Positions 5,345 through 20,677 of a stretch of DNA of 64,000 nucleotides are shown here, piece after piece. Source of the DNA: Streptomyces sp. NBC_00083 (GTDB lineage: Bacteria; Actinomycetota; Actinomycetes; Streptomycetales; Streptomycetaceae); the NCBI RefSeq assembly GCF_026343295.1, contig NZ_JAPELY010000005.1, positions 1 through 64,000 on the forward strand, read 5' to 3'. The translations under genes and the position numbers were made by a program. How positions within the stretch are numbered: position 1 is the first letter of the stretch; each line of letters opens with the position of its first letter. The notes under the pieces were generated by a model. That model was not told the origin of the DNA. It was given only the letters and a program-made list of their open reading frames with translations, and made no database searches.

Positions 5345-5983
5345 TCAGGCCGGGCGGCCGGGGCTCTTCGTCAGGATGCTGGGCAGGACCAGGTCGAGGA
5401 CGCGCTGGAGTTCCACTCCCAGGTCCACGCGCTTCAGGTCGTTCCGGCACAGGCGGAACAGCGCTCCCAGGTAGGCGTCGCGCAGCAGGTGGCCCACCTG
5501 GGTGGGCTCGGTGCCGGCGCGGATCTGGCCGCTCGCGATGCCGGTGCGGATCACGTCCGCGAACACCTCGGCGGTGTAGGGGTGTTCGGTGATCGGCAGG
5601 CCCGCCCGGACCCAGCACATCAGCATGATCTGGTTGAGCTCCGCCGCTTCCTCGCCGTTGATGCCGACGAGCGCCGCCATGCATCGGCCCAGCGCCTTGC
5701 TCACGTCCGCCTCCGCGAGCACCTCCTGGCGCAGCTTGTCCTCCAGCAGCTCCCTGCGCTGGTTGCTCCAGGTGCTGATCAGCTCTTCCTTGTGCTGGAA
5801 GTGGTTGAAGAACGTGCCCCGGGCGACATCGGCGCGCTCGGTGATGTCGTCGATCGTGGTCTGCTCGAACCCCTTCTCGGCGAAGAGGCTCAGGGCGGCG
5901 GAGAAGATCCGCTCTCTCATCCGCTGCTTGTTGCGTTCCCGGCGGCTCGTCGCGACAAGGGCGACGGACGTTTCGTCGGACAT
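5345..5983 (-). CDS. TetR-family regulator (copy 1)
   Basis: Repressor-type transcription factor, 212 residues. A classic TetR helix-turn-helix covers about residues 20-68 (ALSLFAEKGFEQTTIDDI, then ADVARGTFFNHFQHKEEL), followed by a helical ligand domain. ATG 5981-5983 has AGGAGA upstream and is preferred over an in-frame start at 6028. The protein is strongly similar to the second TetR gene at 7090-7782, nearly identical in the DNA-binding part, so the two are paralogues that may see the same operator. It marks the left edge of the biosynthetic cluster. Confidence 0.9.
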   Translation of the reverse strand: MSDETSVALVATSRRERNKQRMRERIFSAALSLFAEKGFEQTTIDDITERADVARGTFFNHFQHKEELISTWSNQRRELLEDKLRQEVLAEADVSKALGRCMAALVGINGEEAAELNQIMLMCWVRAGLPITEHPYTAEVFADVIRTGIASGQIRAGTEPTQVGHLLRDAYLGALFRLCRNDLKRVDLGVELQRVLDLVLPSILTKSPGRPA

Positions 5984-6080
5984 GCGTTCTCCTGTGGCGA
6001 GGGTGTCGGTGCCTAAGCCCTGCTCCACGGGTGGGGAGCTCTTCGGCCACCGACATGGCGCCCGTACAAGCCCGCGGGTG

Positions 6081-6120
6081 TACTAGGATTTAAGTTTAGA
6101 GTAATATACCAGCTTTGTGT
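6081..6120 (-). promoter_or_regulatory. AT-rich promoter/operator of TetR copy 1
   Basis: A sharply AT-rich stretch in otherwise GC-rich DNA. It contains TATACCAG (6105-6112), which also occurs in the promoter of the second TetR gene (7870-7877). A shared operator half-site for two near-identical repressors is a reasonable inference. Confidence 0.4.
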
Positions 6121-6457
6121 CAGGCGAGGCGGGTCCGGGCCACCGGCGCCGCGCCCCCGGCCGGCTTCGAGGCCGCCGCCCGGCACGGGAGGATCTCACG
6201 CTCCCGGCTCCACGCCCAGCACCCCGGCGAACTCCGCCGCGAACGCCCGCTCCCTGCAGCCGTGTTGCCCAACGGACCTGGCTCATCCGTCGATTGACCG
6301 CCGAACCGTGGGCGGCGACGCCACGCCTGTTGTCCGGATCGGCCCAACTCGCCTTGCCGCAACGGCAGATGACCCGTCCGGGCAAGACCGCTCCACTCCG
6401 GCCGCCGCCCTTTTTGCCGAGAGACATCGATCACAGTGACGCCCCAGACGGATGGTG
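6121..6457. other. Intergenic stretch without a supported gene
   Basis: Between the TetR promoter and the thioesterase promoter. Open frames exist on both strands, but none has a ribosome site, a recognisable domain or a sensible neighbour relation. A possible -10 (TACAAT, 6464-6469) just to its right would serve the thioesterase gene. Confidence 0.4.
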
Positions 6458-6517
6458 AAAAAGTACAATTCCTACGAGCGATCCTTTCTCGACCCCACGC
6501 CGATCGGAGCCGCACTC

Positions 6518-7006
6518 ATGGGTGAGCAGACCCGGACGAAGACCACGCCTGGCACAGGGGCCAAGATCCCGCCCGAGGTGCTCAGCCGCTTCGCCGACGC
6601 GGGCGTCGACCTCGAAGCGATGTTCGCCGGCGGACACCTCGGCAACCGGATGGGCGTGGAACTCCTCGAAGCCACCTCCGACCGTGTCGTCGGCACCCTC
6701 CCTGTGGAGGGCAACACCCAGCCGTACGGCCTCCTGCACGGCGGCGCATCGGCGGTCCTCGCGGAACACCTGGGCTCCATCGGCGCGACGCTGTTCGCCG
6801 GCCCCGAGAAGGTGGCGGTCGGCGTGGAGCTCAGCTGCACCCACCACCGGGGGATGCGCTCGGGAACGGTCACCGGCACGGCGACTCCGGTCCACCGCGG
6901 GCGCACCATGGCGACGTACGAGGTCGTCATCACCGACGAACAGGGGCGGCGCGTCTGCACGTCCCGCCTGACCTGCCTCATCCGCGACGCGGTCCCGCAG
7001 GAGTAG
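6518..7006 (+). CDS. PaaI-type hotdog-fold thioesterase
   Basis: Predicted acyl-CoA or acyl-carrier thioesterase, 162 residues, full length for the PaaI/YbgC-like hotdog family. The signature YGLLHGGASAVLAE (around 70-84) is the central helix with its HGG; a beta-rich remainder (VAVGVELSCTHH, GTVTGTATPVHRGR) follows. An upstream in-frame ATG at 6452 precedes the likely -10 box, so ATG 6518 with CGGAG upstream is preferred. It lies between two paralogous TetR genes and beside the PKS, so it may clear mis-primed acyl groups or release an aryl/acyl intermediate; this role is inference. Confidence 0.85.
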   Translation: MGEQTRTKTTPGTGAKIPPEVLSRFADAGVDLEAMFAGGHLGNRMGVELLEATSDRVVGTLPVEGNTQPYGLLHGGASAVLAEHLGSIGATLFAGPEKVAVGVELSCTHHRGMRSGTVTGTATPVHRGRTMATYEVVITDEQGRRVCTSRLTCLIRDAVPQE

Positions 7007-7089: not shown

Positions 7090-7782
7090 CTACTTCGTGC
7101 CGCCGGCCGTGCCGCCGGCCGTGTCGTCGGCGACGGAGCTGTCGCTGACGATGCTGGGCAGCAGGAAGTCCACGATGCCCTGCAACTCCGCGGCCAGGCC
7201 CGCCCCGTCGCCCTTCAGGTCGCCGCGGCACCAGCGGAACAGCGCCCCCAAGTAGGCGTCCCGCAGCAGGTACCCGACCTGGACGGGGTCGACGCCGGAC
7301 TTGATGCGGCCCTCCGCCACCCCGGTCCGGATCACGTTGGCGAACACCTCGGCCGTACGCGGCGGTTCGGTGATGGGCAGGCCCGCCCGCACCCACGAGG
7401 TGAGCATGACCCGGTTGAGCCCTGGCTGCTCCTCCTCGTTGACCTCGACGAGCGCTGACATGCACCGCCCGAGGGCAACACCCGGGTCGTCGTTCACGGG
7501 GGCCCCCTGCCGCAGCTTCTCCTCGAATCGCGTAAGGCGCTGACTGCTCCAGGTCGTGACGAGCTCTTCCTTGTGCTGGAAGTGGTTGAAGAACGTGCCG
7601 CGCGCGACATCGGCGCGCTCCGTGATGTCGTCGACCTTCGTCTGCTCGAAGCCCTTCTCGGCGAACAGGCTCAGGGCAGCGGAGAAGATACGTGCCCTCA
7701 TCCGCTGCTTGTTGCGTTCGCGGCGGCCCGTGGCGACGGGTGCGACGGATGCGGTCGGCGCAACAGGCGATTCAGCAAACAT
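7090..7782 (-). CDS. TetR-family regulator (copy 2)
   Basis: A 230-residue TetR repressor. Its HTH (FSAALSLFAEKGFEQT, ADVARGTFFNHFQHKEEL) is almost the same as in the 5345-5983 protein. The ligand domain has drifted more, and a GTA-rich tail is added. ATG 7780-7782 with GGAGAG upstream is chosen over an in-frame start at 7851. Lying directly downstream of the PKS gene on the same strand, with its own promoter at 7868-7895, it is a good candidate for cluster-specific control. Confidence 0.9.
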   Translation of the reverse strand: MFAESPVAPTASVAPVATGRRERNKQRMRARIFSAALSLFAEKGFEQTKVDDITERADVARGTFFNHFQHKEELVTTWSSQRLTRFEEKLRQGAPVNDDPGVALGRCMSALVEVNEEEQPGLNRVMLTSWVRAGLPITEPPRTAEVFANVIRTGVAEGRIKSGVDPVQVGYLLRDAYLGALFRWCRGDLKGDGAGLAAELQGIVDFLLPSIVSDSSVADDTAGGTAGGTK

Positions 7783-7867
7783 TCGCTCTCCAGCGACAAG
7801 GGAGTGGGCCTCATGACGATGTGGCGCGTGAAGGCCCGTAGGGCTGGGCACAGTTCTCCTCTACAGA

Positions 7868-7895
7868 TTTATACCAGAATTTAACTTTGATGCAA
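7868..7895 (-). promoter_or_regulatory. Promoter of TetR copy 2
   Basis: Read on the minus strand, TTGCAT (7890-7895) and TATAAA (7868-7873) are spaced by 16 bases in an AT-rich patch, a good vegetative-type promoter. TATACCAG on the plus strand overlaps the -10 and is shared with the other TetR promoter, which suits autorepression. Confidence 0.55.
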
Positions 7896-7904
7896 GGTAT
7901 TCAT

Positions 7905-10900
7905 TTACATCTCAGTCGATGCCACCAGCTGGCCGATGCTCTCCCGCCCGAGCAGACGCCCCACGGGCAGGTCGATGCCCAGGGCGGTCCGTATGCGCTG
8001 GCGCAGCTTGACGGCCGCGATGGAATCGAGGCCCAGCTCGCGCAACGGGCGTCTGCGGTCGATGCGTTCGGGCTTCATTCCGAGCAGGGCCGCGGCGTGC
8101 GTCAGCACCACCGTCTCGCCGTCGGCGGCCGGCTCCGCGCCGTCGGCCGGCCCGGGTGCGGGCCGGCTCGCGGGCTCGGGCGCCGGCGGTGCGGGCTCGG
8201 GCGCCGCGGAATCCCGCTCGGGCGCCGCGGGCCGGGCCTCCTCCGCGCCCGCCTGGCCGGTCAGCCGCAGCAGCTGGACGCCGTGCAGCTCCGCCAGGAC
8301 GTGTCCCCCGTCGTCGGAGTGGATCACCACGTCCGCCCGGACGACGGAGTCCCAGGGCGCCGAGCCGTCGTGCGGGACCGGGTGCAGCACGGCCGAACTC
8401 CACACCGGCTTCGTCAGATCGGTGTAATCGCCGTGCGCCGTCAGGGAGTCGACGCCGACCGGCAGATAGGTGTAGCTCGCGCCGTCCGGCCCGGTGCGGG
8501 GCAGCACCGCGAGCAGCGGCTGCAGCAGGATCTCCCACGCCGCGGGGTGCCCGGGGGCCGACAGACGCATCCGGGCCACCGCCCGGCCGTCCCGCCGCCA
8601 GAGCCGGCAGACGCCCGCGAGGTCGCCGGGCACCTCGTATCCGTACCCCCGGATCTCGTCGTAGAAGTCCGGGCCCGCCAGGTACGCGGTGCAGTGCGCG
8701 AGCAGCGCGTCCAGGCTCTCGCCCGTGCCGCCGCCGGTGCGCGGGGACGACGTGACGCGGGCCGTCAGGCAGGTCCTGGCGGGCGCGCCCGCCGGTCCCG
8801 GGGCGACGAGCTGGACCGTCGCGAGGTGGTCGGCGCCCTCGGGGCGCAGCGTGATCCGCAGGGAGGCCCCGTGCGCCTGGGCGCGGTCGACCAGCCCTCC
8901 GCTCAGCCTGATGTCCTCGATCCGGTGGTGACCGCCGAGTTCGGACCGCGCGGCGCTCAGCACGGCGTCGACGTACAGCATCGGCGGCACCACGGCCGTG
9001 CCGCGGAACGAGATCCCCAACGCCTCGGCGCCCAGCGGCCGTTCGTAGGTGTAGCCGGTGGGCTGCGGCTGGGGCGGCGCCTCCCGCAGGTGCTCGTTGT
9101 CCCAGGGGTAGCGGGGCAGGGGCACGGGGCGCGCGCCGCGCCGGAACCACCGGGCGAAGTCGACGACCGCGCCCGACGCGTGGAGGCGGCCGGCCGCGCG
9201 GGCGAGTTCGGCGGCCTCGTCCTCCTTGCGGTGCAGGGAGGCGACGGTGAGGTAGGGGGCGCCGATCGCGTCCAGGGTCTCCTCGACGGCCGACGTCAGC
9301 AGCGGGTGCGGGCTGATCTCCAGGAAGACGCTCTCCTCCTCCTTCGCCAACTGCTCCACGGCACCGGCGAACCGCACGGGGCGCCGCAGGTTGTCCATCC
9401 AGTACGCGGCGGTGAGCGCCGTGCCGGGCACGGGCTCGGCGCGCACGGTCGAATGGAGCGGCAGCGATGTGGCGCGCGGTGCGAGGCCGGTCAGGGCGGC
9501 GAGCAGCCCGGGGCGCAGCGGGTCCATGTCGGGGGAGTGCGAGGCGACGCTGACGTTGACGAACCGGGCCAGCCGGCCGCGTTCCGTCAGGTCCTCGGCG
9601 AGCGCGGCGAGGTGTCCGGGGTCTCCGGCCAGGACGGTGGAGCGCGGTGAGTTCTCCACGGCGACGCACAGCGCGCCCGACGACCGCTCCGCGATCCGTT
9701 CGGCCTCGTCCGGGGACAGGTCGGTGGCCAGCATCCGCCCCCGGCCGCCGAGCCGGCGCATCAGCCGGCTGCGCCGGCAGATGACCGCGGCCGCGTCCGG
9801 CACCGAGAGGGCGCCGGCGACCACGGCCGCGGCGGTCTCGCCCATGCTGTGCCCGACGCACGCGGACGGATCGACGCCGAGATCGGCCCAGAGGGCGGCC
9901 AGCGACACCTCCATCGCCCACAGGGCCGGCTGGACCACGTCGATCTCGCCGGGGAACTCCTCGTGCGCGCTCTCCAGCAACTCGACCACGGACCAGCCGA
10001 GTTCGCGCCGGATCGCGGCGTCGCACTCGGCCATGCGCTCGCGGAAGGCGGGGAACGCCCGGAGCAGGCCGCGTCCCATGCCGGGCCACTGCGCGCCCTG
10101 TCCGGGGAAGACGAACACCGTCTGCCGGCGCGGGCCGAAGCCGGCCTCGCCGCGTCCGCCGTCGGTGATCTCCTCGCCGGCCGCGAGCGCGTCGAGCCGG
10201 CCGGCGATCTCCTCGCGGCTGTGGCCGATCACCCACATCCGGTACGGGTGGTGGTCGCGGCGCAGTGCGGCGGCGGCGCAGATCTCGCTCAGCGGCTCGT
10301 GGTGGCCCGCGCCGCCGGGTCGCAGATGGCGGGCGTAGGCCGTCGCGAGGCGGTCGAGGGACTGCTCCGAACGGGCGCTGATCACCAGCAGGTGGGGGCG
10401 TCCGTCGGCGGTGTCGGGCGTGGTCGCGGTGGTGCTGTCGCGGGGGTGACGGGCCACGACGACATGGGCGTTGGTGCCGGACAGGCCGAAGGAGCTGACC
10501 CCGAGGTACGTCTCGTCGCGCTCCTCCAGGGGTTCGTTCTCGGTGACGACGTGCAGGGGCGACCGCGGGTCTTCGAGCAGCGGGTTGGGCCGGTTCACGT
10601 GGAGCGATGCGGGGATCACGCCGGTGCGGGCGATCAGGACGGTCTTGATCAGTCCTGCGATGCCGGCTGCTGCCTCCGCATGGCCGATGTTGCTCTTCAC
10701 CGAACCGATCCTGAGCGGCCGGTCCGGCGCGCGGTCGGAGCCCAACGCCCGTGCCAGTGCGGCTAGTTCGACCGCGTCGCCGACCGAGGTGCCGGTGCCG
10801 TGCGCCTCCACGTAGCTGAGGTCGGCCGGGGATATCCCGGAGCTGCGGCAGGCATCGCGGAGCATGTCGGCCTGGCCCGGGACGGAGGGCTTGACCAGCA

Positions 10901-11747
10901 GCCCGCTGCTGCGGCCGTCGTTGTTGACCGCGCTGCCGGCCAGCACCGCGAGGACCTGGTCGCCGTCGCGCCGGGCGTCCGCGAGGCGCTTGAGCAGCAC
11001 GACGCCGACGCCGTCACTGCGGACGAACCCGCGGGCATCGGCGTCGCCGAACGCGCAGCGGCCCTCCGGCGAGAGCATGTCCGCCTGCGAGTAGGCGATG
11101 GAGTCCCGGGGCGCGAGGACCACGTTGGCGCCGCCGACGACGGCGAAGTCGCTCTCCCCGGTGAGCAGGCTCTGCCGGGCCATGTGCACCGCGACCAGCG
11201 ACGAGGAGCAGGCGGTGTCGAGCACGACGCTCGGGCCGCGCAGGTCCAGCGCGTACGAGATGCGGCCCGCGGCCATCGACCGTAACTGGCTGCCGATGGT
11301 GCGGCGGATGTCCTGCTCGGTCAGCGGCCGGTGCTCGTCGCCGTATTCGGAGGTCGCCTGCCCGACGAAGACACCGGTGCGGCTGCCGGCCAGGGCGGAC
11401 GGGCGGACGCCCGCGTCCTCCAGCGCCTCCCACACGACTTGGAGCAGCACGCGGTGCTGGGGGTCGATGGTGCGGGCCTCCGCGGGCGAGATGCCGAAGA
11501 ACGCGGGGTCGAAGGCGAAGGGGTCGTCGATGAACCCGCCTCTGGCCGAAACCGACTTGCCCGGGGTGGCCCCGTCGGGAGCGTGGTAGGCGGCGGCGTC
11601 GTACCGGTCGCCCGGAATCGCCGTCACGCTGTCGGCCTTGCCGATCAGACGCTCCCAGAACTCGTCGGCGTTGGCGGCCCCGGGAAATCTGCACCCCAGG
11701 CCGATGACGGCGATCGAGCGGTCGGACGCTACTTCGGGCTGATCCAT
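7905..11747 (-). CDS. Type I polyketide synthase, KS-AT-DH-like-ACP, no KR
   Basis: Single-module PKS of 1,280 residues. The KS has DTACSSS (Cys180), EAHGTGT (His316) and KSNIGH (His356). The AT has GHSMGE (Ser634) and VASHS (His737). A DH-like fold follows (about 880-1165), and the ACP ends the protein with LGLDSIAA (Ser1242). There is no KR, ER or TE. Layout and size match bacterial orsellinate synthases (AviM, CalO5 type), so an iterative, unreduced aromatic tetraketide is the first guess. The DH-like domain lacks its His (Ile912 in the HxxxGxxxxP position) and has Glu1072 where the Asp is expected, so it is probably inactive. ATG 11745-11747 is preferred over a TTG at 11807. Divergent from the 12036 operon. 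Confidence 0.93.
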   Translation of the reverse strand: MDQPEVASDRSIAVIGLGCRFPGAANADEFWERLIGKADSVTAIPGDRYDAAAYHAPDGATPGKSVSARGGFIDDPFAFDPAFFGISPAEARTIDPQHRVLLQVVWEALEDAGVRPSALAGSRTGVFVGQATSEYGDEHRPLTEQDIRRTIGSQLRSMAAGRISYALDLRGPSVVLDTACSSSLVAVHMARQSLLTGESDFAVVGGANVVLAPRDSIAYSQADMLSPEGRCAFGDADARGFVRSDGVGVVLLKRLADARRDGDQVLAVLAGSAVNNDGRSSGLLVKPSVPGQADMLRDACRSSGISPADLSYVEAHGTGTSVGDAVELAALARALGSDRAPDRPLRIGSVKSNIGHAEAAAGIAGLIKTVLIARTGVIPASLHVNRPNPLLEDPRSPLHVVTENEPLEERDETYLGVSSFGLSGTNAHVVVARHPRDSTTATTPDTADGRPHLLVISARSEQSLDRLATAYARHLRPGGAGHHEPLSEICAAAALRRDHHPYRMWVIGHSREEIAGRLDALAAGEEITDGGRGEAGFGPRRQTVFVFPGQGAQWPGMGRGLLRAFPAFRERMAECDAAIRRELGWSVVELLESAHEEFPGEIDVVQPALWAMEVSLAALWADLGVDPSACVGHSMGETAAAVVAGALSVPDAAAVICRRSRLMRRLGGRGRMLATDLSPDEAERIAERSSGALCVAVENSPRSTVLAGDPGHLAALAEDLTERGRLARFVNVSVASHSPDMDPLRPGLLAALTGLAPRATSLPLHSTVRAEPVPGTALTAAYWMDNLRRPVRFAGAVEQLAKEEESVFLEISPHPLLTSAVEETLDAIGAPYLTVASLHRKEDEAAELARAAGRLHASGAVVDFARWFRRGARPVPLPRYPWDNEHLREAPPQPQPTGYTYERPLGAEALGISFRGTAVVPPMLYVDAVLSAARSELGGHHRIEDIRLSGGLVDRAQAHGASLRITLRPEGADHLATVQLVAPGPAGAPARTCLTARVTSSPRTGGGTGESLDALLAHCTAYLAGPDFYDEIRGYGYEVPGDLAGVCRLWRRDGRAVARMRLSAPGHPAAWEILLQPLLAVLPRTGPDGASYTYLPVGVDSLTAHGDYTDLTKPVWSSAVLHPVPHDGSAPWDSVVRADVVIHSDDGGHVLAELHGVQLLRLTGQAGAEEARPAAPERDSAAPEPAPPAPEPASRPAPGPADGAEPAADGETVVLTHAAALLGMKPERIDRRRPLRELGLDSIAAVKLRQRIRTALGIDLPVGRLLGRESIGQLVASTEM

Positions 11748-12035
11748 GAGGCGTACCTGCCTTCGTGCGAGCGAAGCATCGGTGCTGCAGGAGAGATAGT
11801 CGTCCAATCATTGATGCGAGGTCAAGATTGAACCCACACCGCCTAGTTGACCCGCTGGACACCGACTACGCCCCCCACCTGCGCCGCTCTCTCAGGACCC
11901 TCGCGAACCCTCCCGGCGGGTGTGACTCAGGTCGCTCGCCTCCTTGGCTTCCAGTAAAAAGTGATACTTGCATCTAACCTCGACTCGTGGTGCCATCTTG
12001 TCCGGCAGTTGACGAATCTCAAGGAGGCACCAGAC
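11748..12035. promoter_or_regulatory. Divergent promoter region, PKS versus tailoring operon
   Basis: A 288-base divergent spacer. AAGTGATACTT (11959-11969) is a perfect inverted repeat (AAGT/ACTT) in an AT-rich patch, a TetR-sized operator candidate. TTGATGC-N-AGGT occurs at 11814 and again just upstream of the TetR copy 2 promoter (7887). AAGGAGG at 12021-12027 is the ribosome site of the rightward gene. Confidence 0.4.
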
Positions 12036-12851
12036 ATGCCGAGTACGGGGTTACGGATCAACGGCGGCGAGGCCGACGTCGCGTACGGCATCCACGGCAG
12101 CGGCCCGGCTCTGGTCCTGGTGCACGGCACCGGAACCCGTGGCGAAGCCTGGGACGAGCAAGTGCAAGAACTTCAGGGGAAGTTCACCGTCGTCACCCCG
12201 GATCTGTCCGGTTCCGGCGGTACGGTCGATCACGGCGGACCGCTGACCCTGGACGACCTGGTCGCCGAAGTCCTCGCGGTGGCCGACCACGCCGGGCTCG
12301 ACACCTTCCACATCGCCGGCCACTCCCTCGGCGCGGTGGTGGCGCTGCGCCTGGCGGCCGACCACCCCGAGCGCGTCCGCTCGGTCGTCTCGCACGCAGG
12401 CTGGGCGTACACCGACGAGCGGATGACGGCCGACTTCCGCTACTGCCTCGATCTGCTGCGCACCGACGCCGAGTTGGGCACCTCACTGGTCCCGCAGATG
12501 TTCCCGCTGGCCACCCTCGGCCCCCGCTACTGGGCGGCGACCGACCGGGCCTCGCACGAGAAGCTCGTCCAGCAGATCGCGGAGAACGGCCAGCCCGGCA
12601 CCGCCCGGCAGTTCGAGGTCGGCCTCACCGTCGACCTGCGTCCGCTGCTCGGCCGGATCACCGCGCCGGTCCTGGTGTTCGCCAGCACCCACGACCGCGT
12701 CTGCGGGGCGAACCAGCAGCAGCTGCTGCGCGAGGGGATAGCCGGCGCCTCCTACGCCGAGATCGACACGGGCCACAACGCCCTGGCGGAGGACCCCCAG
12801 GGGTTCGCCGAGGTGCTCGGCTCGTTCCTCACGCAGCACGCCGGCGCCTGA
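12036..12851 (+). CDS. Alpha/beta-hydrolase
   Basis: A 271-residue alpha/beta-hydrolase. It has an oxyanion HGTG (29-32), the nucleophile elbow GHSLG (Ser97), an acid in the STHDRV region and the catalytic His in DTGHNALAE near residue 246. The start at ATG 12036 has a consensus AAGGAGG eight bases upstream. It is first in a rightward operon and divergent from a PKS that lacks a thioesterase, so it could release or hydrolyse the PKS product. It could equally act on a later ester or lactone; substrate unknown. Confidence 0.85.
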   Translation: MPSTGLRINGGEADVAYGIHGSGPALVLVHGTGTRGEAWDEQVQELQGKFTVVTPDLSGSGGTVDHGGPLTLDDLVAEVLAVADHAGLDTFHIAGHSLGAVVALRLAADHPERVRSVVSHAGWAYTDERMTADFRYCLDLLRTDAELGTSLVPQMFPLATLGPRYWAATDRASHEKLVQQIAENGQPGTARQFEVGLTVDLRPLLGRITAPVLVFASTHDRVCGANQQQLLREGIAGASYAEIDTGHNALAEDPQGFAEVLGSFLTQHAGA

Positions 12852-12936
12852 GAGCGGCGTCCGCGGACCGCGCCCCCGGGGCCTTCCCGGCCCTCGCGAC
12901 CCACCCCCGCGACACACCGATTGTTGGAGGAAGTTC

Positions 12937-13761
12937 ATGTCCGTTTGGCTGATCACCGGCAGCTCCCGTGGCCTCGGCCTGCACATCGCCCGGGAGGCGC
13001 TCGCCCAGGGCCATCAGGTCGTCGCGACGGCGCGCGACGCGGAGGCCGTGCGCGCCGCGCTCGGCGAGGCCGGCGGTGAGCTGCTGGCCCTGCCGCTCGA
13101 CGTGACCGACGAGCGGCAGGCACAGGAGGTGGCGCAGGCCGCGGTCGAGCGCTTCGGCCGGATCGACGTCCTGGTCAACAACGCCGGCCGGGGTCTGCTC
13201 GGCGCCGTGGAGGAGGCGTCGGACGCCGAGGCGCGCGCGGTCTTCGACATCAACGTCTTCGGTCTGCTCGCCGTCACCCGGGCGGTCCTGCCGCACCTGC
13301 GCCGGCAGCGCTCCGGCCGGATCCTCAACATCAGCTCGGTCGGCGGATTCACCGCCGGCTCGGGCTGGGGCGTCTACAACAGCACCAAGTTCGCCGTCGA
13401 GGGCCTCAGCGAGGCGCTGCGCGCCGACCTCGCGCCGCTCGGCATCCACGTCACCATCATCGAACCCGGGGTCTTCCGCACCGACTTCCTCGACGACTCC
13501 TCGCTGCACCGCACCACCGCGATCGACGACTACGCGGGGACCGTCGGCAAGACCCGCACCTGGGCGCTGGACACCAACCACCAGCAGCCCGGCGACCCGG
13601 CCAAGGCCGCGCGGGCGATCGTCACCGTGTCCGAGGCGGACGAGCCCCCGCTGCGCCTGCCGCTCGGCGCGGACTGCGTCGCCCGCGTCGAGAGCAAGCT
13701 CGAAAGCGTCGCCAAGGAGCTCGACGCCTGGCGGGAGATCGCGCTGGACACGGCCATCTGA
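12937..13761 (+). CDS. Short-chain dehydrogenase/reductase
   Basis: Classical NAD(P)-dependent SDR of 274 residues. It shows the dinucleotide-binding TGSSRGLG (7-14), NNAG (81-84), catalytic Ser134, and Y147xxxK151 in YNSTK. The Arg32-type basic residues after the second strand suggest NADPH. GGAGGAAG precedes ATG 12937. It should reduce a ketone or oxidise an alcohol on a cluster intermediate; because the PKS has no KR, a separate reductase may adjust the oxidation state later. Same strand and 85 bases after the hydrolase. Confidence 0.88.
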   Translation: MSVWLITGSSRGLGLHIAREALAQGHQVVATARDAEAVRAALGEAGGELLALPLDVTDERQAQEVAQAAVERFGRIDVLVNNAGRGLLGAVEEASDAEARAVFDINVFGLLAVTRAVLPHLRRQRSGRILNISSVGGFTAGSGWGVYNSTKFAVEGLSEALRADLAPLGIHVTIIEPGVFRTDFLDDSSLHRTTAIDDYAGTVGKTRTWALDTNHQQPGDPAKAARAIVTVSEADEPPLRLPLGADCVARVESKLESVAKELDAWREIALDTAI

Positions 13762-13790
13762 CCAACCGTCCCCGGAAAAGGAGGACTCCG

Positions 13791-15026
13791 ATGCGCTCGG
13801 GGAGTTCGGCCGGGCGGGTGGACCCGCGGGTGTGGCTGCTCGCGCTGGGAACATTCGCCACCGGCACCGACCTGTTCATCGTCTCCGGACTGCTCCCGGC
13901 AGTGGGCCGGGACCTGCACCTCTCGACGGCACTCGCGGGCCAGACCTCCACGGCGTTCGCCGCCGCGTACGCGGTGGGGGCGCCGATCCTGGCCGGACTC
14001 ACCGCCAGGTTCCGGCGCAAGCCGCTGCTCATCTCCGTCATGCTGGTCTTCGGCCTCGGCAACGCCCTGTCGGCCGTCTCGGCCAACTTCACCGTGCTGC
14101 TCATCAGCCGTGTGATCACCGGCGCGGGCGCCGCCCTGTACTCGGCCAACGCCTCCGCGGTCGCCGCCCGCATCAGCCCGCCCGAGGTGCGCGGCCGGGC
14201 CCTGGCCATCGTCTACGCGGGCATGACGAGCGCCATCGCCTTCGGTGTGCCGATCGGCAACTGGATCGGTGAACTCGCCTCCTGGCGCTGGGCGTTCGGC
14301 CTCGTCGCGTTCCTCGCGGCCGTGACGGTCGTCGGCATCGGGTTCTTCCTGCCTGACGTGCCCGCGGGCCCCGGCGCCACGGTGCGGGAGCGGATGTCCG
14401 CGATCCGGATCCCGCAGGCCCGTACCCACCTGCTGGTGACGGCGGCCTGGACCGCCGGAACGTTCACCGTCTACACCTACCTCGGCTCCATCCTGGAGCA
14501 GATCACCGGACTCTCCGCGGGCCAGCAGTCGTGGATCCTGCTGCTCTTCGGCGTCGGCAGCTTCGGCGGGGTCTTCGTCGGCGGCCGGCTCGCCGACCGG
14601 TTCGGCTCGGTCGTCGGACTCACCCTCACCATCAGCGCGCTGGGCGTCTGGCTGATCATCCTCACCCCGGCCATCCGCTGGCCGCTGGCCGCCGCGATAG
14701 CCGTCGGGGTGTGGGGGCTGGTGCACTGGCCCAGCTTCCCGCTCCTGCTGCACCGCGCGCTCGGCATCGGCGGGGACCGCGGCGACATGCTCCTCGCGCT
14801 CAACAACAGCGCCGTCTACGTGGGGCAGATGATCGCCGCCGCGGTCGGCGGGCTGCTGGCCAACGCCGGCCTGCTCCGCTGGAACCCGCTGGCCGGCGCC
14901 GGCTTCGAGCTGCTCGCCGGCCTCGCCCTCGTCGTCAGCGTGGGCGCACTGCGCGGCCGTACCGGCAAACGCACCCGGCCGGCGACGCCCACCGAAGCCG
15001 AGACCAGTCCCGCCCTGCGCGGGTGA
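13791..15026 (+). CDS. MFS transporter
   Basis: Twelve-segment major facilitator, 411 residues. The N-half has the loop 2-3 region ILAGLTARFRRKPLL, and the C-half repeats it as VGGRLADRFGSVVG. It resembles the CynX/AraJ drug-export families of actinomycetes. It lies 29 bases after the SDR with AAAAGGAGG upstream, so it is co-transcribed with the tailoring genes and likely exports the product or confers self-resistance. Substrate not predictable. Confidence 0.88.
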   Translation: MRSGSSAGRVDPRVWLLALGTFATGTDLFIVSGLLPAVGRDLHLSTALAGQTSTAFAAAYAVGAPILAGLTARFRRKPLLISVMLVFGLGNALSAVSANFTVLLISRVITGAGAALYSANASAVAARISPPEVRGRALAIVYAGMTSAIAFGVPIGNWIGELASWRWAFGLVAFLAAVTVVGIGFFLPDVPAGPGATVRERMSAIRIPQARTHLLVTAAWTAGTFTVYTYLGSILEQITGLSAGQQSWILLLFGVGSFGGVFVGGRLADRFGSVVGLTLTISALGVWLIILTPAIRWPLAAAIAVGVWGLVHWPSFPLLLHRALGIGGDRGDMLLALNNSAVYVGQMIAAAVGGLLANAGLLRWNPLAGAGFELLAGLALVVSVGALRGRTGKRTRPATPTEAETSPALRG

Positions 15027-15140
15027 AACGTGCCCCGGCCGCGGGCGGCGTCATCCCCCGTCGTACCGCCCCGGCCGGGGCGCCCCCACACGATCCGTCC
15101 TCGCTCACGAAGGAATCACCTCCCGAAGGAAGGACGCAGC

Positions 15141-15617
15141 ATGCCCGCTCACCAGGAGATGGAGGTCGAGGCGGGACCCCGTCTCGCCCCGGAGGTCCGC
15201 GCCCTCGCGGACGGGCCGAACTTCGCCGCCCTGACCACCCTGATGCGCGACGGAACCCCGCAGACCCAGATCGTGTGGGTCTCCACCGCGGGTGACTACC
15301 TCGCCCTCAACAGCGAGGTGGCGCGGCAGAAGGTGCGCAACCTGCGCCGCGATCCGCGGGCCACCGTCACCATCTGGCAGCACGGCGACCCCCTGAACTT
15401 CGCCGAGATACGCGGCCGGGTGGTCAAGGAGGTCCTCGGCGCCGAGGCCCGCGAGCACATCGACGAGCTGTCCCGCAAATACCTGGGCGGCCCGTTCGCC
15501 GACGAGTTCATCACCTCGGACCGCGTGATGCTCCTCATCGAACCCGACCGCCAGCTCGTCCGCGACCACGCGCGCTGGGTGGCGGGGCTGCCGCTGCCCC
15601 AACAACAGCACCAGTGA
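15141..15617 (+). CDS. PPOX-class F420-dependent oxidoreductase
   Basis: Split-barrel protein of 158 residues, typical for F420- or flavin-binding PPOX-type enzymes (FAALTTLMRDGTPQTQIVWV, then QKVRNLRRDPRATVTIW). AAGGAAGGA precedes ATG 15141. These enzymes reduce or oxidise double bonds, quinones or biliverdin-like compounds; here it probably adjusts a ring or enone in the cluster product. It ends in PQQQHQ, encoded by one copy of a 19-base direct repeat. Confidence 0.85.
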   Translation: MPAHQEMEVEAGPRLAPEVRALADGPNFAALTTLMRDGTPQTQIVWVSTAGDYLALNSEVARQKVRNLRRDPRATVTIWQHGDPLNFAEIRGRVVKEVLGAEAREHIDELSRKYLGGPFADEFITSDRVMLLIEPDRQLVRDHARWVAGLPLPQQQHQ

Positions 15618-15648
15618 CCAACAGCAGCGAACAACAGCACCAGTGACC
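15601..15648 (+). repeat. 19-base direct repeat across a stop codon
   Basis: AACAACAGCACCAGTGACC occurs exactly at 15601-15619 and 15630-15648. The first copy contains the TGA of the PPOX gene, the second lies in the spacer. It looks like a recent local duplication of the gene end. Confidence 0.8.
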
Positions 15649-15680
15649 CGGAATCGTCCACTCATGCGTGAGGAGTCACA

Positions 15681-16826
15681 GTGAAACGCCGCATTCTGAT
15701 CATCGGCGGGGGCATCGGCGGGCTTGCCGCCGGCGCCGCGCTCGGACAGCAGGGCATAGAGACCACGATCGTCGAGATCCAGTCGGAGAACCTCGTCGCC
15801 GGCGTCGGCATCAACATCCCCGGCAACGCGCTGCGGGCCCTGGACCGGATCGGCCTGCTCGACGACGTCCTCGCCCACGGCTTCACCTTCGACCGGGTCG
15901 ACTTCCACGACTCGGCATCCCGGCTGCTGCTCGCCCTGCGCTCGAAGCTGGGCGTCGGGGGCGTCCCCCCCAACTGCGCCATCCAGCGCAGGGACCTGGC
16001 CCGGATCCTGGAGAAGGCCTGCGTCGACGTGGGCACCCAGATCCGCTACGGCACGTCCGTGCAGGACATGCGCACCACCGCCGACGGCGGGGTCGCGGCC
16101 ACCCTCACCGACGGCAGCACCGAACAGTACGACCTGGTGGTCGCGTTCGACGGCATCCGGTCCTCCTTCCGCAAGGCGGCCCTCGGCATCGAGCCCCGCT
16201 TCACCGGCTACTCGGTGTGGCGGGTCGCCCTGGAGCGGCACCCCGACGTCACCCGGAACATGTACTTCCAGGGCATGGGCACCAAGGCGGGCCTCTTCCC
16301 GCTCAACGAGGCCGTCATGTACCTGCTGCACGTGACGCCGGAGCCGGGCAATCCGCGCCACGCCAAGGAGCAGTTCTACAGCCACCTCACCGAACGGCTC
16401 GACGGCTACACCGGTCTGATCGGCGAACTGCGCGACCGCATCAAGCCCGACGACGACATCGTGTACGCGCCGATCGAGGAGGTGCTCCTCCCGCTTCCCT
16501 GGTACCACGAAGGGCTGCTGCTGCTCGGGGACGCCGCCCACGCCATGGCGCCGCACCGTACCCAGGGCGCGGCCATGGCCATCGAGGACGCCGCCGTACT
16601 CGGCGAGACGCTCGGCCGCGACGGCGACCTGCGGGAGCTGATCGCCGAGTTCCAGGAGCGCCGCTTCGTCCGCGCCAAGATCGCCCAGGACGCCTCCCGC
16701 GACATCCTCCTGGCCGAGATGAACACCGCCGACCAGGCGGCCCTCGACCGGCAGACCGCCTTCATCAGGAACGGCCTCGAAGGGGTGTCCCACCAAGTGG
16801 ACGACGCGCTCAACCAGCCGTTCTGA
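15681..16826 (+). CDS. FAD-dependent aromatic monooxygenase
   Basis: Class A flavoprotein hydroxylase, 381 residues (GTG start at 15681, GAGG upstream). The N-terminal GGGIGGLAAG binds the FAD ADP part, VVAFDGIRSSFRK is the conserved DG motif, and LLLGDAAHAMAPH is the GD motif contacting the FAD ribityl. The family (salicylate, 3-hydroxybenzoate and UbiH-like hydroxylases) inserts one oxygen into a phenolic ring or does oxidative decarboxylation. A hydroxybenzoate from the chorismate lyase at 20678 or the PKS aromatic acid is the likely substrate type. Confidence 0.9.
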   Translation: MKRRILIIGGGIGGLAAGAALGQQGIETTIVEIQSENLVAGVGINIPGNALRALDRIGLLDDVLAHGFTFDRVDFHDSASRLLLALRSKLGVGGVPPNCAIQRRDLARILEKACVDVGTQIRYGTSVQDMRTTADGGVAATLTDGSTEQYDLVVAFDGIRSSFRKAALGIEPRFTGYSVWRVALERHPDVTRNMYFQGMGTKAGLFPLNEAVMYLLHVTPEPGNPRHAKEQFYSHLTERLDGYTGLIGELRDRIKPDDDIVYAPIEEVLLPLPWYHEGLLLLGDAAHAMAPHRTQGAAMAIEDAAVLGETLGRDGDLRELIAEFQERRFVRAKIAQDASRDILLAEMNTADQAALDRQTAFIRNGLEGVSHQVDDALNQPF

Positions 16827-16854
16827 TGCCGCTCCGCTCCGAAGGGACGAACGC

Positions 16855-17952
16855 GTGACCATCACCCCCGACCAGCTGCCCGATCCGCACCGGCCACCTT
16901 CGGCGGAGGCCGGCTTCGACGCCCACGTCCGCGCCATGATGGCCTGGCACTTCGACGACCGCACGGGCTCACCGTTCTGGCTGGCCCGCCGCGCGCAGCT
17001 GGGCTTCGACCCGCGCACCGACGTCACCGGCGCGCACGATCTGCTCCGCTTCCCCGATGTCAGCCGCGACCTGCGCACCACCCCCGCGGCCGACCTCATA
17101 CCCGCGGGAGCCGCACCCGGGCAGGCCTTCCGCGTCTTCGAGTCGGGCGGCACCACCGGCGCACCCAAGCGGATCGTCGACGGCGCCTACCGCTCCCGGA
17201 TGGGGGTCTGGACCCGGCGGCTGCTGACCCGGCACGGCGTACCCGAGACCGGCGATTGGCTGCACCTGGGCCCCACCGGCCCGCATGTGGTCGCCTTCGA
17301 CACCTCCCGCTACGCCGAGCCCTCCGGCGGCCTGTGCCACACCGTCGACCTCGACCCGCGCTGGGTCAAACGCCTGCTGGGCGCCGGGCGGCAGCAGGAG
17401 GCCGACGACTACATCGACCACCTCCTCGACCAGGCCCGCGAGGTCCTGCTGAGCCAGCCGGTGCGCGTCCTGAGCACCACACCCCCGCTGATCGAGGCCA
17501 TCTGCGCCCGGCCCGACCTGTACGAACTCGTCGCGTCGCGCGTCCAGGCCATCATCTGGGCCGGCACCTCCTTCAGCCCCGAAAGCCTGCGGCTGGTCCA
17601 GGAGGACTTCTTCCCCGACGCCCGCGTGGTCGGCATCTACGGCAACAGCCTCATGGGCGTGGCCCCCCAGCGCGTACGGACACCCCAGGACAGCTACCCG
17701 TGCGTCTTCGAGCCGTTCGCCGAGACCACCCGCCTGGACCTGGTCGACGAGGCCGGCGAGCAGGTCGGGTACGGCGAGCGCGGCCGGGTCCGGCTGCACC
17801 TGGTCAGCGAGGAGATGTTCCTGCCCAACGTGCTGGAACGCGACAGCGCCGTCAGGGTCCCGCCGTCCGTGGACGGCGGCGTCGACGGCCTCGCCGAGGT
17901 GACCAGCGTGGCGACCTTCGAGGACGCCGACGTCGTGGAGGGGGTGTACTGA
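16855..17952 (+). CDS. LuxE-like acyl-adenylating enzyme (aryl acid activation)
   Basis: AMP-forming enzyme of 365 residues, shorter than full ANL ligases and like LuxE/PaaK-type and phenazine-cluster activators. FESGGTTGAPKRI (95-107) is the P-loop and GIYGNSLMGV is the aromatic A5-like motif. GTG start at 16855. Its stop directly abuts the LuxC-like gene with no gap, so the pair is translated together, as LuxE and LuxC work together. I infer that it activates a carboxylic acid, probably an aryl acid from this cluster, and passes it to the reductase. Confidence 0.75.
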   Translation: MTITPDQLPDPHRPPSAEAGFDAHVRAMMAWHFDDRTGSPFWLARRAQLGFDPRTDVTGAHDLLRFPDVSRDLRTTPAADLIPAGAAPGQAFRVFESGGTTGAPKRIVDGAYRSRMGVWTRRLLTRHGVPETGDWLHLGPTGPHVVAFDTSRYAEPSGGLCHTVDLDPRWVKRLLGAGRQQEADDYIDHLLDQAREVLLSQPVRVLSTTPPLIEAICARPDLYELVASRVQAIIWAGTSFSPESLRLVQEDFFPDARVVGIYGNSLMGVAPQRVRTPQDSYPCVFEPFAETTRLDLVDEAGEQVGYGERGRVRLHLVSEEMFLPNVLERDSAVRVPPSVDGGVDGLAEVTSVATFEDADVVEGVY

Positions 17953-19305
17953 GTGCTCGCCATCGACCCCTTCGTCGCCGGTGAGAGCCGGCCGAGCGCC
18001 GACCGCGCCGTCCTGCGGGACGTGCACGGCGAACCGCTCGCCGATGTCGGCCTCGCCCCGCGGCTCGCCGCGCAGGCCGCCGTCGACCGGCTGCGCCGGC
18101 TCGCCGACGGTCTGCCGCCCGAGCCCGAGGTCTTCCGCACCGCCGCGCGGCTGTTCGCCACGGCCGAGCTGGACGGCGAGAGCCCCGACGCCTACGTGCA
18201 CCGCACCGTGCGCGGTACGGGACTCGCGTCCACCACGGTCCGGCGCGCCCTGACGGACATGGCCACCGAGATCGAGGCGCTGCCCGCGGCCGCCGCCGCG
18301 GAGCTGCCCGCCGCGCGACTGCGTCCGACCCACCGCGTCCACCGGGCGCCCTCCGGCCGGATCTTCACGGCCGTGATGGCGAGCAACCACCCGCTGCCGC
18401 ACGCCACTTGGGTGCAGCCGCTCTACCACGGCTACAGCGTCGTCGTACGGCCCGGCAGCCGCGACCCGTTCACGCCGCGCCGGCTGGCCGCCGCCCTGCT
18501 CACCGCCGGACTGCCGCCGGAGAAGCTGGCGTTGCTGCCGAGTCCGCACGCCGTCGGATCGTTCCTCCTGAACGCCGCCGACCGGGGCATCGTCTACGGC
18601 AACGACCAGGCGGTGAGCGCCTGGGCCGATCACGCCCGGGTGGCCACCCGCGGCCCCGGTCGCTCCCGGGCGCTGCTCGACGCGCCCCTGACCGATGCCC
18701 TCCTGGATCACCTGGCCCTGAGCGCCGCCTTCGACGGCGGCACCCGGTGCACCAACCTCTCCGCCGTCTTGACCAGCAACGACGTCCACGCCACCGCGTC
18801 CGCTCTCGCCGAACGGCTGGCACGCATCCCGGTGCTGCCGGCCCTGGACCCGCGCAGCGAGCTGCTCGTCGTGGGCCACGAGCGCGCCGACGCGCTGCGC
18901 CGGCAGATGGCGAAGCTGGCCACCGAACTCGGCGACCACAGCACCCCGCTGTACGGCGACGACTTCCTCGTCGACCTCGGCGACGGCTCCTTCCTGCCGC
19001 GCCCGATGGTCCTGGCCGCCGACCGCGCCGACCATCCGGCCGTCGGTACGGAGCTGGCGTTCCCGTTCGTCGTGGTCGCCCCCTGGAGCCCGGCCGACGG
19101 CATCGCGCCGCTGCGGCCCTCGCTCGTGCTCAACCTGCTGACCGACAACGCCGAGATCACCGGCCGGGCGCTGCTCGACCCGTCCGTACGGAAGATCACC
19201 GACGGCGCCGTCCTGCCCTGGGAGCCGGTGCCGGGCATGCCGCACGACGGCAACTACACCGCGTTCCTCCTGGACGCCAAGGGCGTCGTCACCCCGGCCG
19301 GCTGA
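17953..19305 (+). CDS. LuxC-like acyl-CoA/acyl-protein reductase (aldehyde-forming)
   Basis: Aldehyde-dehydrogenase-fold reductase, 450 residues, related to LuxC acyl-CoA reductases. The family would form an acyl thioester on the Cys in GGTRCTNLSAV (Cys266) and reduce it with NADPH to an aldehyde; ASNHP (Asn145 region) sits where the oxyanion Asn is expected. GTG 17953 follows the previous stop at once. With the LuxE-like partner it should convert an acid to an aldehyde, a two-protein replacement for a carboxylic acid reductase. Direction (reduction) is inferred from the partner. Confidence 0.78.
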   Translation: MLAIDPFVAGESRPSADRAVLRDVHGEPLADVGLAPRLAAQAAVDRLRRLADGLPPEPEVFRTAARLFATAELDGESPDAYVHRTVRGTGLASTTVRRALTDMATEIEALPAAAAAELPAARLRPTHRVHRAPSGRIFTAVMASNHPLPHATWVQPLYHGYSVVVRPGSRDPFTPRRLAAALLTAGLPPEKLALLPSPHAVGSFLLNAADRGIVYGNDQAVSAWADHARVATRGPGRSRALLDAPLTDALLDHLALSAAFDGGTRCTNLSAVLTSNDVHATASALAERLARIPVLPALDPRSELLVVGHERADALRRQMAKLATELGDHSTPLYGDDFLVDLGDGSFLPRPMVLAADRADHPAVGTELAFPFVVVAPWSPADGIAPLRPSLVLNLLTDNAEITGRALLDPSVRKITDGAVLPWEPVPGMPHDGNYTAFLLDAKGVVTPAG

Positions 19306-19352
19306 GCCGGCCCCTTCCCCCCACCGTTCACCACACGATCGGGAGTGTTCAC

Positions 19353-20552
19353 ATGTCCAGATCAACCAGGACGGCCGTGCCCGCGTCCGCGCGCTTCGCA
19401 CGGCTGCCCTCGCTGACCGGCATGCGGTTCTTCGCCGCGTTCCTGGTTTTCTCCTTCCACTCCACGCTGCCGCCCTACACGCCGTTCAGCGGCGGCAGCG
19501 CCGAAGCGGTCACGCACGCCGTCAGCAAGGCGGGCTGGCTGGGCGTCGGGTTCTTCTTCGTGCTCAGCGGGTTCGTACTGACCTGGTCGGCACGGCCGGG
19601 CGACCGGCCCCGGCAGTTCTGGCGGCGCCGCCTGGTCAAGATCTACCCCAACCACGTGGTGACCTTCGTCGCCGCGCTGGTGCTGTTCGCCTGGGCCAAG
19701 AACACCTGGAAGCAGGAGCTGCCCAACCTGTTCCTGCTGCACACGTGGATACCGGACGCGAAGACGTTCCAGAGCGTCAACCCGCCCAGCTGGTCGCTCT
19801 CCGTGGAGATCATCTTCTACCTCTGCTTCCCCTGGCTGCACCGGATGATCCAGCGCATCAGGCCGGAGCGGCTGTGGCTGTGGGTGGGCATCCTCACCGC
19901 CGCCGTGTTCGCCGTCCCGGCCATCGCGTACGCCGTCCTGCCCGGCTCCCCCACCATGCCGCTCGGGTTCAAGGCGTCGGTGTGGCAGTACTGGTTCGTC
20001 TGGCAGCTGCCGCCGTTCCGGATGCTGGAGTTCGCGGTGGGCATCCTGATGGCCCGCATCGTCATGACCGGCCGCTGGATCAACTTCCCGGTCGTCCCGG
20101 CGCTGCTCCTGGTCGCCGTCGCCTACGTGGTCGAGCTGCGGGTGCCGTGGCTGTACGGGATGAGCGCCGTGACGCTGGTCCCGGTCGCGCTGCTGATCGC
20201 CGCGATGGCCACGACCGACATCGCGGGCCGGCGCTCGATCCTGCGCAACCGGGTCTGTGTGTGGCTCGGCGAAGTCTCGTTCGCCTTCTACCTTGTCCAC
20301 GACATCACCGTGCACGTCTTCGTCGACCGCTTCGGCCTCAGCCCGGTGCACAGCGCCCCGGCAGCGGCCGGGCTGCTCGCCGCGGAGGCGGCCATCAGCG
20401 TCTTCTTCTCCTGGCTCCTGCACATCGGTGTGGAGCTGCCGCTGATGAACCGCTTCGGGCGCACCCGCCCGCCGCTGCCGCGCAACACCGCGACCGGCAC
20501 CGGCGGCACCGAGCCCGACAACAAGCCGGTCGAAGCCGCGCGGGCGCACTGA
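19353..20552 (+). CDS. Membrane acyltransferase (acyltransferase-3 family)
   Basis: Integral membrane O-acyltransferase, 399 residues with about ten membrane segments. Arg25-x10-His36 (MRFFAAFLVFSFHS) is the family signature, and SWSLSVEIIFY is the second conserved block. Relatives in macrolide, saccharide and glycopeptide pathways acylate hydroxyl groups. ATG 19353 chosen. The C-terminal tail is hydrophilic. It probably decorates the product with an acyl group at the membrane. A hairpin right after the stop may end this operon. Confidence 0.88.
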   Translation: MSRSTRTAVPASARFARLPSLTGMRFFAAFLVFSFHSTLPPYTPFSGGSAEAVTHAVSKAGWLGVGFFFVLSGFVLTWSARPGDRPRQFWRRRLVKIYPNHVVTFVAALVLFAWAKNTWKQELPNLFLLHTWIPDAKTFQSVNPPSWSLSVEIIFYLCFPWLHRMIQRIRPERLWLWVGILTAAVFAVPAIAYAVLPGSPTMPLGFKASVWQYWFVWQLPPFRMLEFAVGILMARIVMTGRWINFPVVPALLLVAVAYVVELRVPWLYGMSAVTLVPVALLIAAMATTDIAGRRSILRNRVCVWLGEVSFAFYLVHDITVHVFVDRFGLSPVHSAPAAAGLLAAEAAISVFFSWLLHIGVELPLMNRFGRTRPPLPRNTATGTGGTEPDNKPVEAARAH

Positions 20553-20555
20553 TCC

Positions 20556-20584
20556 GCGCGGCACCCCGGCCGGGGTGGCCGCGC
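20556..20584 (+). terminator. GC hairpin after the acyltransferase gene
   Basis: GCGCGGCACCCCGG pairs with CCGGGGTGGCCGCGC with one bulged G, starting three bases after the stop. A strong stem; a loop would have to open at its tip. Probably terminates or attenuates the 12036-20552 operon. Confidence 0.5.
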
Positions 20585-20677
20585 CGTCTCCCCCGCGCGC
20601 GGCCACCCCTCACCGCACTCGTGCGCACGCCGGACGATCCCCCTCCAGCACACCAAGGGCAGCCCAGGAGACCCATC

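Follow-up and report, generated by a model that had tools for sequence, protein, structure and literature searches.

Architecture of the polyketide synthase

The window considered here, a 64,000-nucleotide stretch of Streptomyces sp. NBC_00083 (contig NZ_JAPELY010000005.1, positions 1 to 64,000), encodes on its reverse strand a type I polyketide synthase (PKS) with an altered dehydratase (DH)-like domain. The open reading frame (ORF) spans 7905..11807 (-), and translation from the ATG at 11747 gives a PKS of 1280 amino acids, in which a ketosynthase (KS), an acyltransferase (AT), the DH-like domain (hereafter pseudo-DH) and an acyl carrier protein (ACP) follow one another:

7905..11747 (-): type I PKS, KS-AT-pseudoDH-ACP, 1280 amino acids (ORF, Pfam and alignment)
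10458..11720 (-): KS domain, amino acids 10-430, Cys-His-His intact
9168..10118 (-): AT domain, amino acids 544-860, with GHSMGE and VASH motifs
8238..9080 (-): pseudo-DH, amino acids 890-1170, a double hotdog by homology
9012..9014 (-): ATC codon of Ile912, in the catalytic His column
8532..8534 (-): GAG codon of Glu1072, in the catalytic Asp column
7920..8108 (-): ACP domain, amino acids 1214-1276, with Ser1242

An earlier reading of this DNA from its letters (the sequence-only reading) had described intact KS, AT and ACP residues, and KS Cys180/His316/His356, AT Ser634/His737 and ACP Ser1242 are indeed all present. It had also placed Ile912 and Glu1072 at the positions of the catalytic His and Asp, which the two codons bear out; the His column is anchored by the RGxxxVP(P/G) motif that follows it (RGTAVVPP in the window versus RGVAVVPG in a relative, L022) and the Asp column by HPAxx(E/D) (HPAAWE in the window versus HPALLD in CurF). 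Pfam recovered KS, AT, PS-DH (residues 1010-1167 only, 42 bits) and PP-binding matches and, as the same reading had claimed, no ketoreductase (KR) or thioesterase (TE), nor any other release family, at E up to 0.01.

A pseudo-dehydratase pattern fixed across the family

The substitutions at these two columns recur among relatives of the window PKS. Twenty-four of the 29 relatives fetched in a first survey had Val, Ile, Leu, Thr or Ser at the His column together with Glu at the Asp column, and the other five comprised one with His and Glu (L022), three with His and Asp (L027, L029 and L030) and one whose His column was out of frame, with the Glu present (L028). When 30 family members were aligned over their full length, the window PKS and those of two named species among them, none had His at the His column (Val in 18, Ile in 5, Leu in 5, Thr and Ser in 1 each), and the Asp column was Glu in all 30. 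The Gly of the PG motif was replaced by Pro (position 922) in every member, and the residue before it was Pro in 28. A 31st, partial member (L134, from genome G152) has Val and Glu at the two columns. Mean pairwise identity across the alignment was 0.65 for the KS, 0.57 for the AT, 0.35 for the pseudo-DH and 0.46 for the ACP; the only exceptions at the KS Cys, AT Ser and ACP Ser were L047, whose KS stretch is out of frame, and L130, whose ACP is missing at a contig edge.

The occurrence of Glu in 30/30 members and of a residue other than His in 30/30, despite 35% identity across the domain, is more than chance. The sequence-only reading had allowed that the catalytic His might have shifted elsewhere in the domain, and no conserved His column was found anywhere in the pseudo-DH across the 30 aligned members. 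Its description of the DH as apparently dead stands insofar as the residues for His-based chemistry are missing, but their loss is the rule of a conserved family, not a defect peculiar to this protein. These patterns suggest a DH-fold domain without His/Asp chemistry that has been retained as a fixed pseudo-DH, with a hydrophobic or small residue at the His column, Pro at 922 and an invariant Glu.

A search with the DH-like region across 392 sampled genomes of the genus found some match in 75, many in long modular PKSs, and the pseudo-DH family itself in 27. Across 394 genomes of the class, the family profile scored 231-368 bits in four, including the window's own, and at most 94 bits in all else. 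One of the four (G607) lies outside the taxonomic family of the window; in the alignment, one member (L124) comes from another taxonomic family. The window PKS belongs to a conserved family of actinobacterial type I PKSs that are non-reducing, stand-alone modules.

Selection on the individual domains is consistent with retention. The ratio of nonsynonymous to synonymous substitution rates (dN/dS), from three pairwise comparisons among the window PKS and its S. xanthochromogenes and S. barringtoniae orthologues, was 0.21-0.24 for the KS, 0.16-0.31 for the AT, 0.13-0.26 for the ACP, 0.32-0.50 for the pseudo-DH and 0.25-0.76 for the linkers, in a set that included no true DH as control. The pseudo-DH is under purifying selection, but the constraint on it is looser than that on the catalytic domains, as would suit a structural role. 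A PKS decaying in a single lineage, with its DH degenerating first, might likewise have both the His and the Asp replaced, and a PKS from outside the family (L137) has Ala at both columns. Such decay is nevertheless very improbable here, given the identical pattern in 30 members from more than one taxonomic family, the intact KS, AT and ACP, dN/dS below 1 in every domain, and the 87-89% conservation of the surrounding block in two other species.

A linked TetR regulator and an operator-like palindrome

Two TetR genes and several copies of a palindrome lie close to the PKS:

7090..7851 (-): TetR of the PKS-linked subfamily, 53 bp downstream of the PKS
5345..6028 (-): second TetR, a 69% identical paralogue
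11818..11835 (no strand): operator-like palindrome GAGGTCAAGATTGAACCC in the divergent promoter shared by PKS and abhydrolase, 17.5 bits, one of the training sites
6086..6103 (no strand): operator-like palindrome upstream of the second TetR, 18.3 bits, outside the training set
7859..7894 (no strand): two weaker operator-like sites (from 7859 and 7877) upstream of the first TetR, 13.6 and 14.7 bits

Homologues of the TetR at 7090..7851 adjoin nearly every family PKS. Searching the 392 genomes with this subfamily gave 32 matches of at least 150 bits in 29 genomes, the next match scoring 115. All 27 PKS genomes were among them, with the TetR within 5 kb of the PKS domain searched in 26 and at 17 kb in G310; the two others (G260 and G286) had no PKS in the 20 kb around the TetR. 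The PKS and TetR trees were largely congruent, as judged by eye. Since the PKS-TetR pair sits among different genes in other genomes, the PKS and its dedicated TetR are portable as a cassette. In the PDB, the TetR matched 3ang best (64.5 bits), which we take to be an acyl-CoA-type regulator, while AvaR1 scored 27 bits. Both orphan TetRs, L131 (G260) and L132 (G286:C123), adjoin MFS-like genes, and the one in G286 also adjoins an AfsA/ScbA-like gene; a strong palindrome lies between the pump and TetR genes of L131, and L132 has none. Genome G224 has PKS-TetR pair matches near both ends of one contig (G224:C1:26891-28758 and 7693488-7695446); because its PKS is frameshifted in the copy examined (L135), it is assigned to the family by KS-AT similarity, by adjacency and by the Glu.

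When 19 PKS upstream regions were searched for palindromic motifs (at two further loci no start was obtained), the search returned GTnCAAATTTGnAC, with log-likelihoods of 104-124 at four widths versus a maximum of 40 in dinucleotide shuffles (eight per width, run with 15 restarts and 25 iterations versus 40 and 30 for the real set). A matrix built from 18 PKS sites, to which the TetR upstreams were unseen in training, scored at least 12 bits in 26 of 37 TetR upstreams, some of them close orthologues, versus 0.8% of 3,000 random 290-base windows, mostly coding. Upstreams of other genes reached this score in 11 of 414 cases, 7 of these being promoters shared with a PKS. At a threshold of at least 16 bits there were 46 matches in 767,170 bases (37 sources), all 46 within 301 bases of the end of a PKS or TetR alignment, 18 of them being training sites and several others lying in close orthologues; at the same threshold, background PKS fragments (218,635 bases) gave none and the reversed sequences gave 4. 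One locus, L128, had no site above 16 bits. From this placement we infer that the TetR may bind the GTnCAAATTTGnAC palindrome and act as a repressor. The family as defined here is marked by a residue other than His at 912, Pro922, Glu1072, an adjacent TetR of the linked subfamily and GTnCAAATTTGnAC in the promoter, and the window PKS has all of these, its palindrome being a training-set copy.

Relatives without the regulator help to delimit the family. The related KS-AT-DH-ACP outgroup L126 (the locus of L022; G286:C100) keeps the His, has the Glu and carries Leu for Trp1071; it has no TetR match, and its best palindrome score was 9.6. This single sequence hints that the Glu may have arisen before the His was lost, L126 possibly representing an intermediate state. 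Two PKSs of genome G300 were considered as members and set aside because neither has the Glu, a TetR or the palindrome: L136 keeps the His with an HAFH motif (best palindrome score 9.0), and L137 (G300:C1:1147000-1166900) has Ala at both columns and AASH (best 8.5). L137, a short KS-AT-X-ACP PKS, is a second kind of dead-DH PKS.

Gamma-butyrolactone systems (AfsA/ScbA with ArpA/ScbR) combine a synthase gene, a TetR receptor gene and a shared operator as a unit, as this cassette does, whereas the cassette uses a type I PKS in place of AfsA and a TetR that is only distantly ScbR-like (53 bits versus a cut-off of 150). By analogy, the PKS product might be the ligand of its own TetR, in a self-contained small-molecule signalling cassette with AfsA/ArpA-like logic. 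The presence of the TetR in 27/27 PKS genomes, mostly next to the PKS, the tree congruence, the restriction of strong palindromes to PKS/TetR promoters, the differing gene contexts, and the two PKS-less TetRs that neighbour MFS-like genes (in one case with an AfsA-like gene alongside) would all suit such a cassette. However, a local TetR repressor is nothing unusual in a biosynthetic cluster, the ligand may instead be a butyrolactone made through the AfsA-like genes that lie near some family PKSs, and the TetR matches 3ang far better than AvaR1, so we give this idea a low probability. If it held, the pseudo-DH PKS could be making an actinobacterial autoregulator, a short polyketide, branched and unreduced, such as an alkyl-alpha-pyrone. 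Its cassette could be inserted into various antibiotic clusters, and strains that carry just the TetR with an efflux pump might listen in on the polyketide signal.

Acyltransferase motif and the orsellinate alternative

The AT motif was VASH in 29 of 30 members and VPSH in the remaining one (L127), as also in the partial member from G152; HAFH occurred in none. The Met of GHSMGE was present in all 30. Scores of the window AT were 245 bits for DEBS and 217 for MAS, which we take to be methylmalonyl ATs, versus 184 for PpsA and 180 for PpsC, presumably malonyl ATs. In published work, VASH is given as an ethylmalonyl motif and HAFH as a malonyl motif, and VASH is found in EPOAT7, in epothilone engineering towards methylmalonyl, and in the isobutyrylmalonyl AT4 of divergolide (PMC10006239, PMC8058987, PMC6490886, PMC10204065 and PMC10646177, which jointly also cover the CalA3 DH and pyrone release discussed below). 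The window AT thus probably loads a branched extender (methyl- or ethylmalonyl). Since it combines VASH with higher DEBS and MAS scores, orsellinate, which is built from malonyl only, is not the obvious product.

Synthases of 6-methylsalicylic acid (6-MSA; ChlB1 and fungal 6-MSAS) resemble the window PKS as iterative-type single modules with an inner DH-like domain. In contrast to them, the window PKS has no KR between the DH or thioester hydrolase (TH) domain and the ACP, and no His in its DH-like domain. A closer likeness exists with AviM and CalO5 (KS-AT-PT-ACP, where PT is the product template domain), which share the domain order, the stand-alone module, the lack of KR and TE, and a DH-like fold between AT and ACP; compared by description only, the window family differs in lacking the catalytic His (30/30), in its Asp-to-Glu change, in its VASH AT and in having its own TetR and palindrome. 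No AviM chain was found by name among the matches listed when solved structures were searched with the query domain, L022 and profile A1. L022 was also tried as an AviM-like anchor and rejected, as besides itself it matches mainly long modular PKSs.

The sequence-only reading had called this PKS orsellinate-type. An orsellinic acid (or methylated orsellinate) synthase would have to operate here through spontaneous cyclisation, a separate cyclase, or Glu1072 as base. According to PMC9135731, AviM makes and releases orsellinate on its own without a TE, in trace amount in vitro, the authors allowing for helper enzymes. Its H949A/F variants lose orsellinate, make tetraacetic acid lactone and give increased triacetic acid lactone, whereas the Asp partner D1104 is non-essential, most activity being kept without it (PMC9135731). 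At the columns of window Ile912 and Glu1072 neither AviM residue is present in the family. The dispensable Asp, the AviM/CalO5-like domain order and the aromatic-ring hydroxylases near family PKSs (9 of 130 neighbour proteins at 22 loci) would be compatible with an orsellinate synthase, but the loss of orsellinate on replacing His949, the absence of HAFH from all 30 ATs and the lack of a family-wide cyclase (PF04199 in only 2 of the 130 neighbours, among 25 families listed) make it doubtful. The orsellinate-type label is therefore not upheld, as the AviM PT needs its His and the window AT is VASH, not the malonyl HAFH.

Product release and neighbouring enzymes

The sequence-only reading treated the missing release domain as noteworthy and supposed that cyclisation and release may need separate proteins, for which three genes of the window were named:

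6452..7006 (+): 4HBT/EntH-like hotdog thioesterase, between the two TetR genes
11961..12851 (+): alpha/beta hydrolase (Pfam), first gene divergent from the PKS
16855..17952: AMP-binding protein, below the Pfam cut-off (25 versus 30 bits), which we take to be LuxE/PaaK-like

All three genes are real, but the hydrolases are not family partners. Homologues of the 4HBT thioesterase were absent from 24 other loci, and the alpha/beta hydrolase had one weak match there; both are kept in S. xanthochromogenes and S. barringtoniae, as far as those stretches reach. Around 22 family PKSs, 178 proteins were called within 5.5 kb; for the 130 of them analysed, 25 Pfam families were listed (smallest n=2), of which the commonest were MFS (14), aromatic-ring hydroxylase FAD_binding_3/Rng_hyd_C (9) and short-chain dehydrogenase/reductase (SDR; 7), and no thioesterase or alpha/beta hydrolase family was among the 25. 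One family locus, L047, does have a thioesterase. Because thioesterase and hydrolase homologues are nearly absent from other loci, a dedicated release partner is, by these counts, not a family trait. Furthermore, the LuxE-like protein was rejected as a general release partner, since its homologues occur in 112 of 392 genomes and in only 8 of the 27 PKS genomes; in 4 of those 8 (the window's own, G377, G313 and G247) the gene lies within about 15 kb of the PKS, and at these loci it may have a role in release. The neighbouring ring hydroxylases leave a ring-shaped product, aromatic or pyrone, likely.

In a subgroup of loci (L038, L041, L044/L051, L050 and L052), a presumably PaaK/LuxE-like protein is divergent from the PKS, and most of these loci have aromatic hydroxylase, AfsA-like, HAD phosphatase and KAS III genes nearby.

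Alternatively, the pseudo-DH could itself have become a release domain. Hotdog thioesterases (EntH/4HBT) use a catalytic Glu located on the hotdog helix, and Glu1072 might act in the same way to hydrolyse the ACP thioester, which could explain why the Glu is invariant while the remaining domain diverges and why no hydrolase is common to the family loci surveyed. The domain has no second conserved catalytic residue that we could identify, and selection on it is weaker than on the KS. Moreover, the DH of CalA3, a calcimycin chain-release PKS (structures 7wvz and 8i4y), is judged non-enzymatic in the sources listed above and has the identical Asp-to-Glu change (Glu1129), its His being replaced by Gln962. 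The family profile aligns across the whole CalA3 domain (E 6e-12), although CalA3 differs from the window PKS, whose KS, AT and ACP are intact, in having an inactive AT and a KR and no ACP. We consider a release function of the pseudo-DH unlikely.

The absence of a release domain is itself less telling than the sequence-only reading supposed, since AviM also lacks one, yet makes and releases orsellinate (PMC9135731). Triketide pyrones, according to the same set of sources as for CalA3, exit modules without TE help. We count this, together with the pyrones that AviM forms on losing the PT His, in favour of a TE-less pyrone exit in the present family.

Proposed function of the cassette

The reading that we favour, with a probability of roughly 0.55 as a whole, is that of a conserved pseudo-DH PKS under its own TetR, the two portable together, that would produce an unreduced, probably branched short chain leaving without a TE. 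The TetR would repress the PKS and the divergent operon through the GTnCAAATTTGnAC palindrome in the PKS promoter, and would also act at its own promoter. On derepression, the AT would load a methyl- or ethylmalonyl extender and the KS would extend the starter without reduction to a short beta-keto chain, with the pseudo-DH playing a structural or tunnel-shaping part and no His chemistry. The chain might then exit by lactonisation to an alpha-pyrone or be handed to a cluster enzyme.

Several observations weigh against this reading. Glu1072 adjoins a conserved Trp (26/30), which could mean a catalytic role, and the AlphaFold2 model of the pseudo-DH (three sequences) reached a mean predicted local distance difference test score (pLDDT) of only 42. 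Eleven of the 37 TetR upstreams, including that of the orphan locus L132, fall below 12 bits. The VASH rule derives from modular PKSs; the non-family PKS L126 also carries VASH, and the AT comparison covered DEBS, MAS, PpsA and PpsC. Lastly, FAD_binding_3/Rng_hyd_C is the commonest enzyme class near family PKSs and would also suit an aromatic product.

Genomic context in the window

The PKS lies at one side of a conserved block that also contains the divergent operon:

7120..41520 (no strand): block of about 34 kb, 87-89% nucleotide identity in S. xanthochromogenes JCM 4612 and S. barringtoniae JA03
12937..19305 (+): SDR, MFS efflux, F420-type PPOX, FAD monooxygenase, AMP-binding and aldehyde-dehydrogenase-fold proteins, the last presumably LuxC-like
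19353..20552 (+): membrane acyltransferase (Acyl_transf_3)
20672..21193 (+): weak chorismate-lyase-like protein, Rv2949c-like, E 1e-3, below cut-off
21246..22478 (+): class II 3-deoxy-D-arabino-heptulosonate 7-phosphate (DAHP) synthase-like protein
36892..41356 (-): C5N-type head-to-tail triplet of AMP-binding protein, 5-aminolevulinate synthase (38445-39695) and AMP-binding protein

Conservation stops at 41.52 kb in both species. The 5-aminolevulinate synthase assignment is above cut-off (543 bits). S. xanthochromogenes is regarded as a reductiomycin producer, and the C5N triplet possibly points to a reductiomycin-like product. The head-to-tail order of AMP-binding and 5-aminolevulinate synthase genes is that of C5N clusters of the linear-polyketide and reductiomycin group, as PMC4525017 describes them. 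Reductiomycin itself was not adopted as the product: the C5N genes and their order fit that source, but no paper linking the cluster to reductiomycin was found among titles and the opening lines of abstracts.

Elsewhere in the window, a DUF6182 protein (6e-98) lies within the conserved block at 28147-29088, and 52159-54485 encodes a cytochrome P450 with a chalcone synthase-like type III PKS after it. At the left edge, a SmaI-type restriction enzyme (PF17411) and a C5 cytosine methyltransferase occupy a lower-GC stretch (41-2060, 54%), and a phage-integrase match just under cut-off lies at 2994-3644; this edge is perhaps a mobile restriction-modification island.

Implications

A change that looks like damage when a single protein is considered proves to be constant throughout a family, no product of which was found described in the open-licence literature. 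Annotating its members as orsellinate or 6-MSA synthases would probably predict the wrong product, because the His-based chemistry established for AviM is missing from the family. A regulator-paired family with its own genetic switch hints at an unrecognised small-molecule pathway. The PKS-TetR pair may supply either a building block or a signal, and the dedicated TetR with its precise palindrome offers a direct handle on what the cassette makes and senses.

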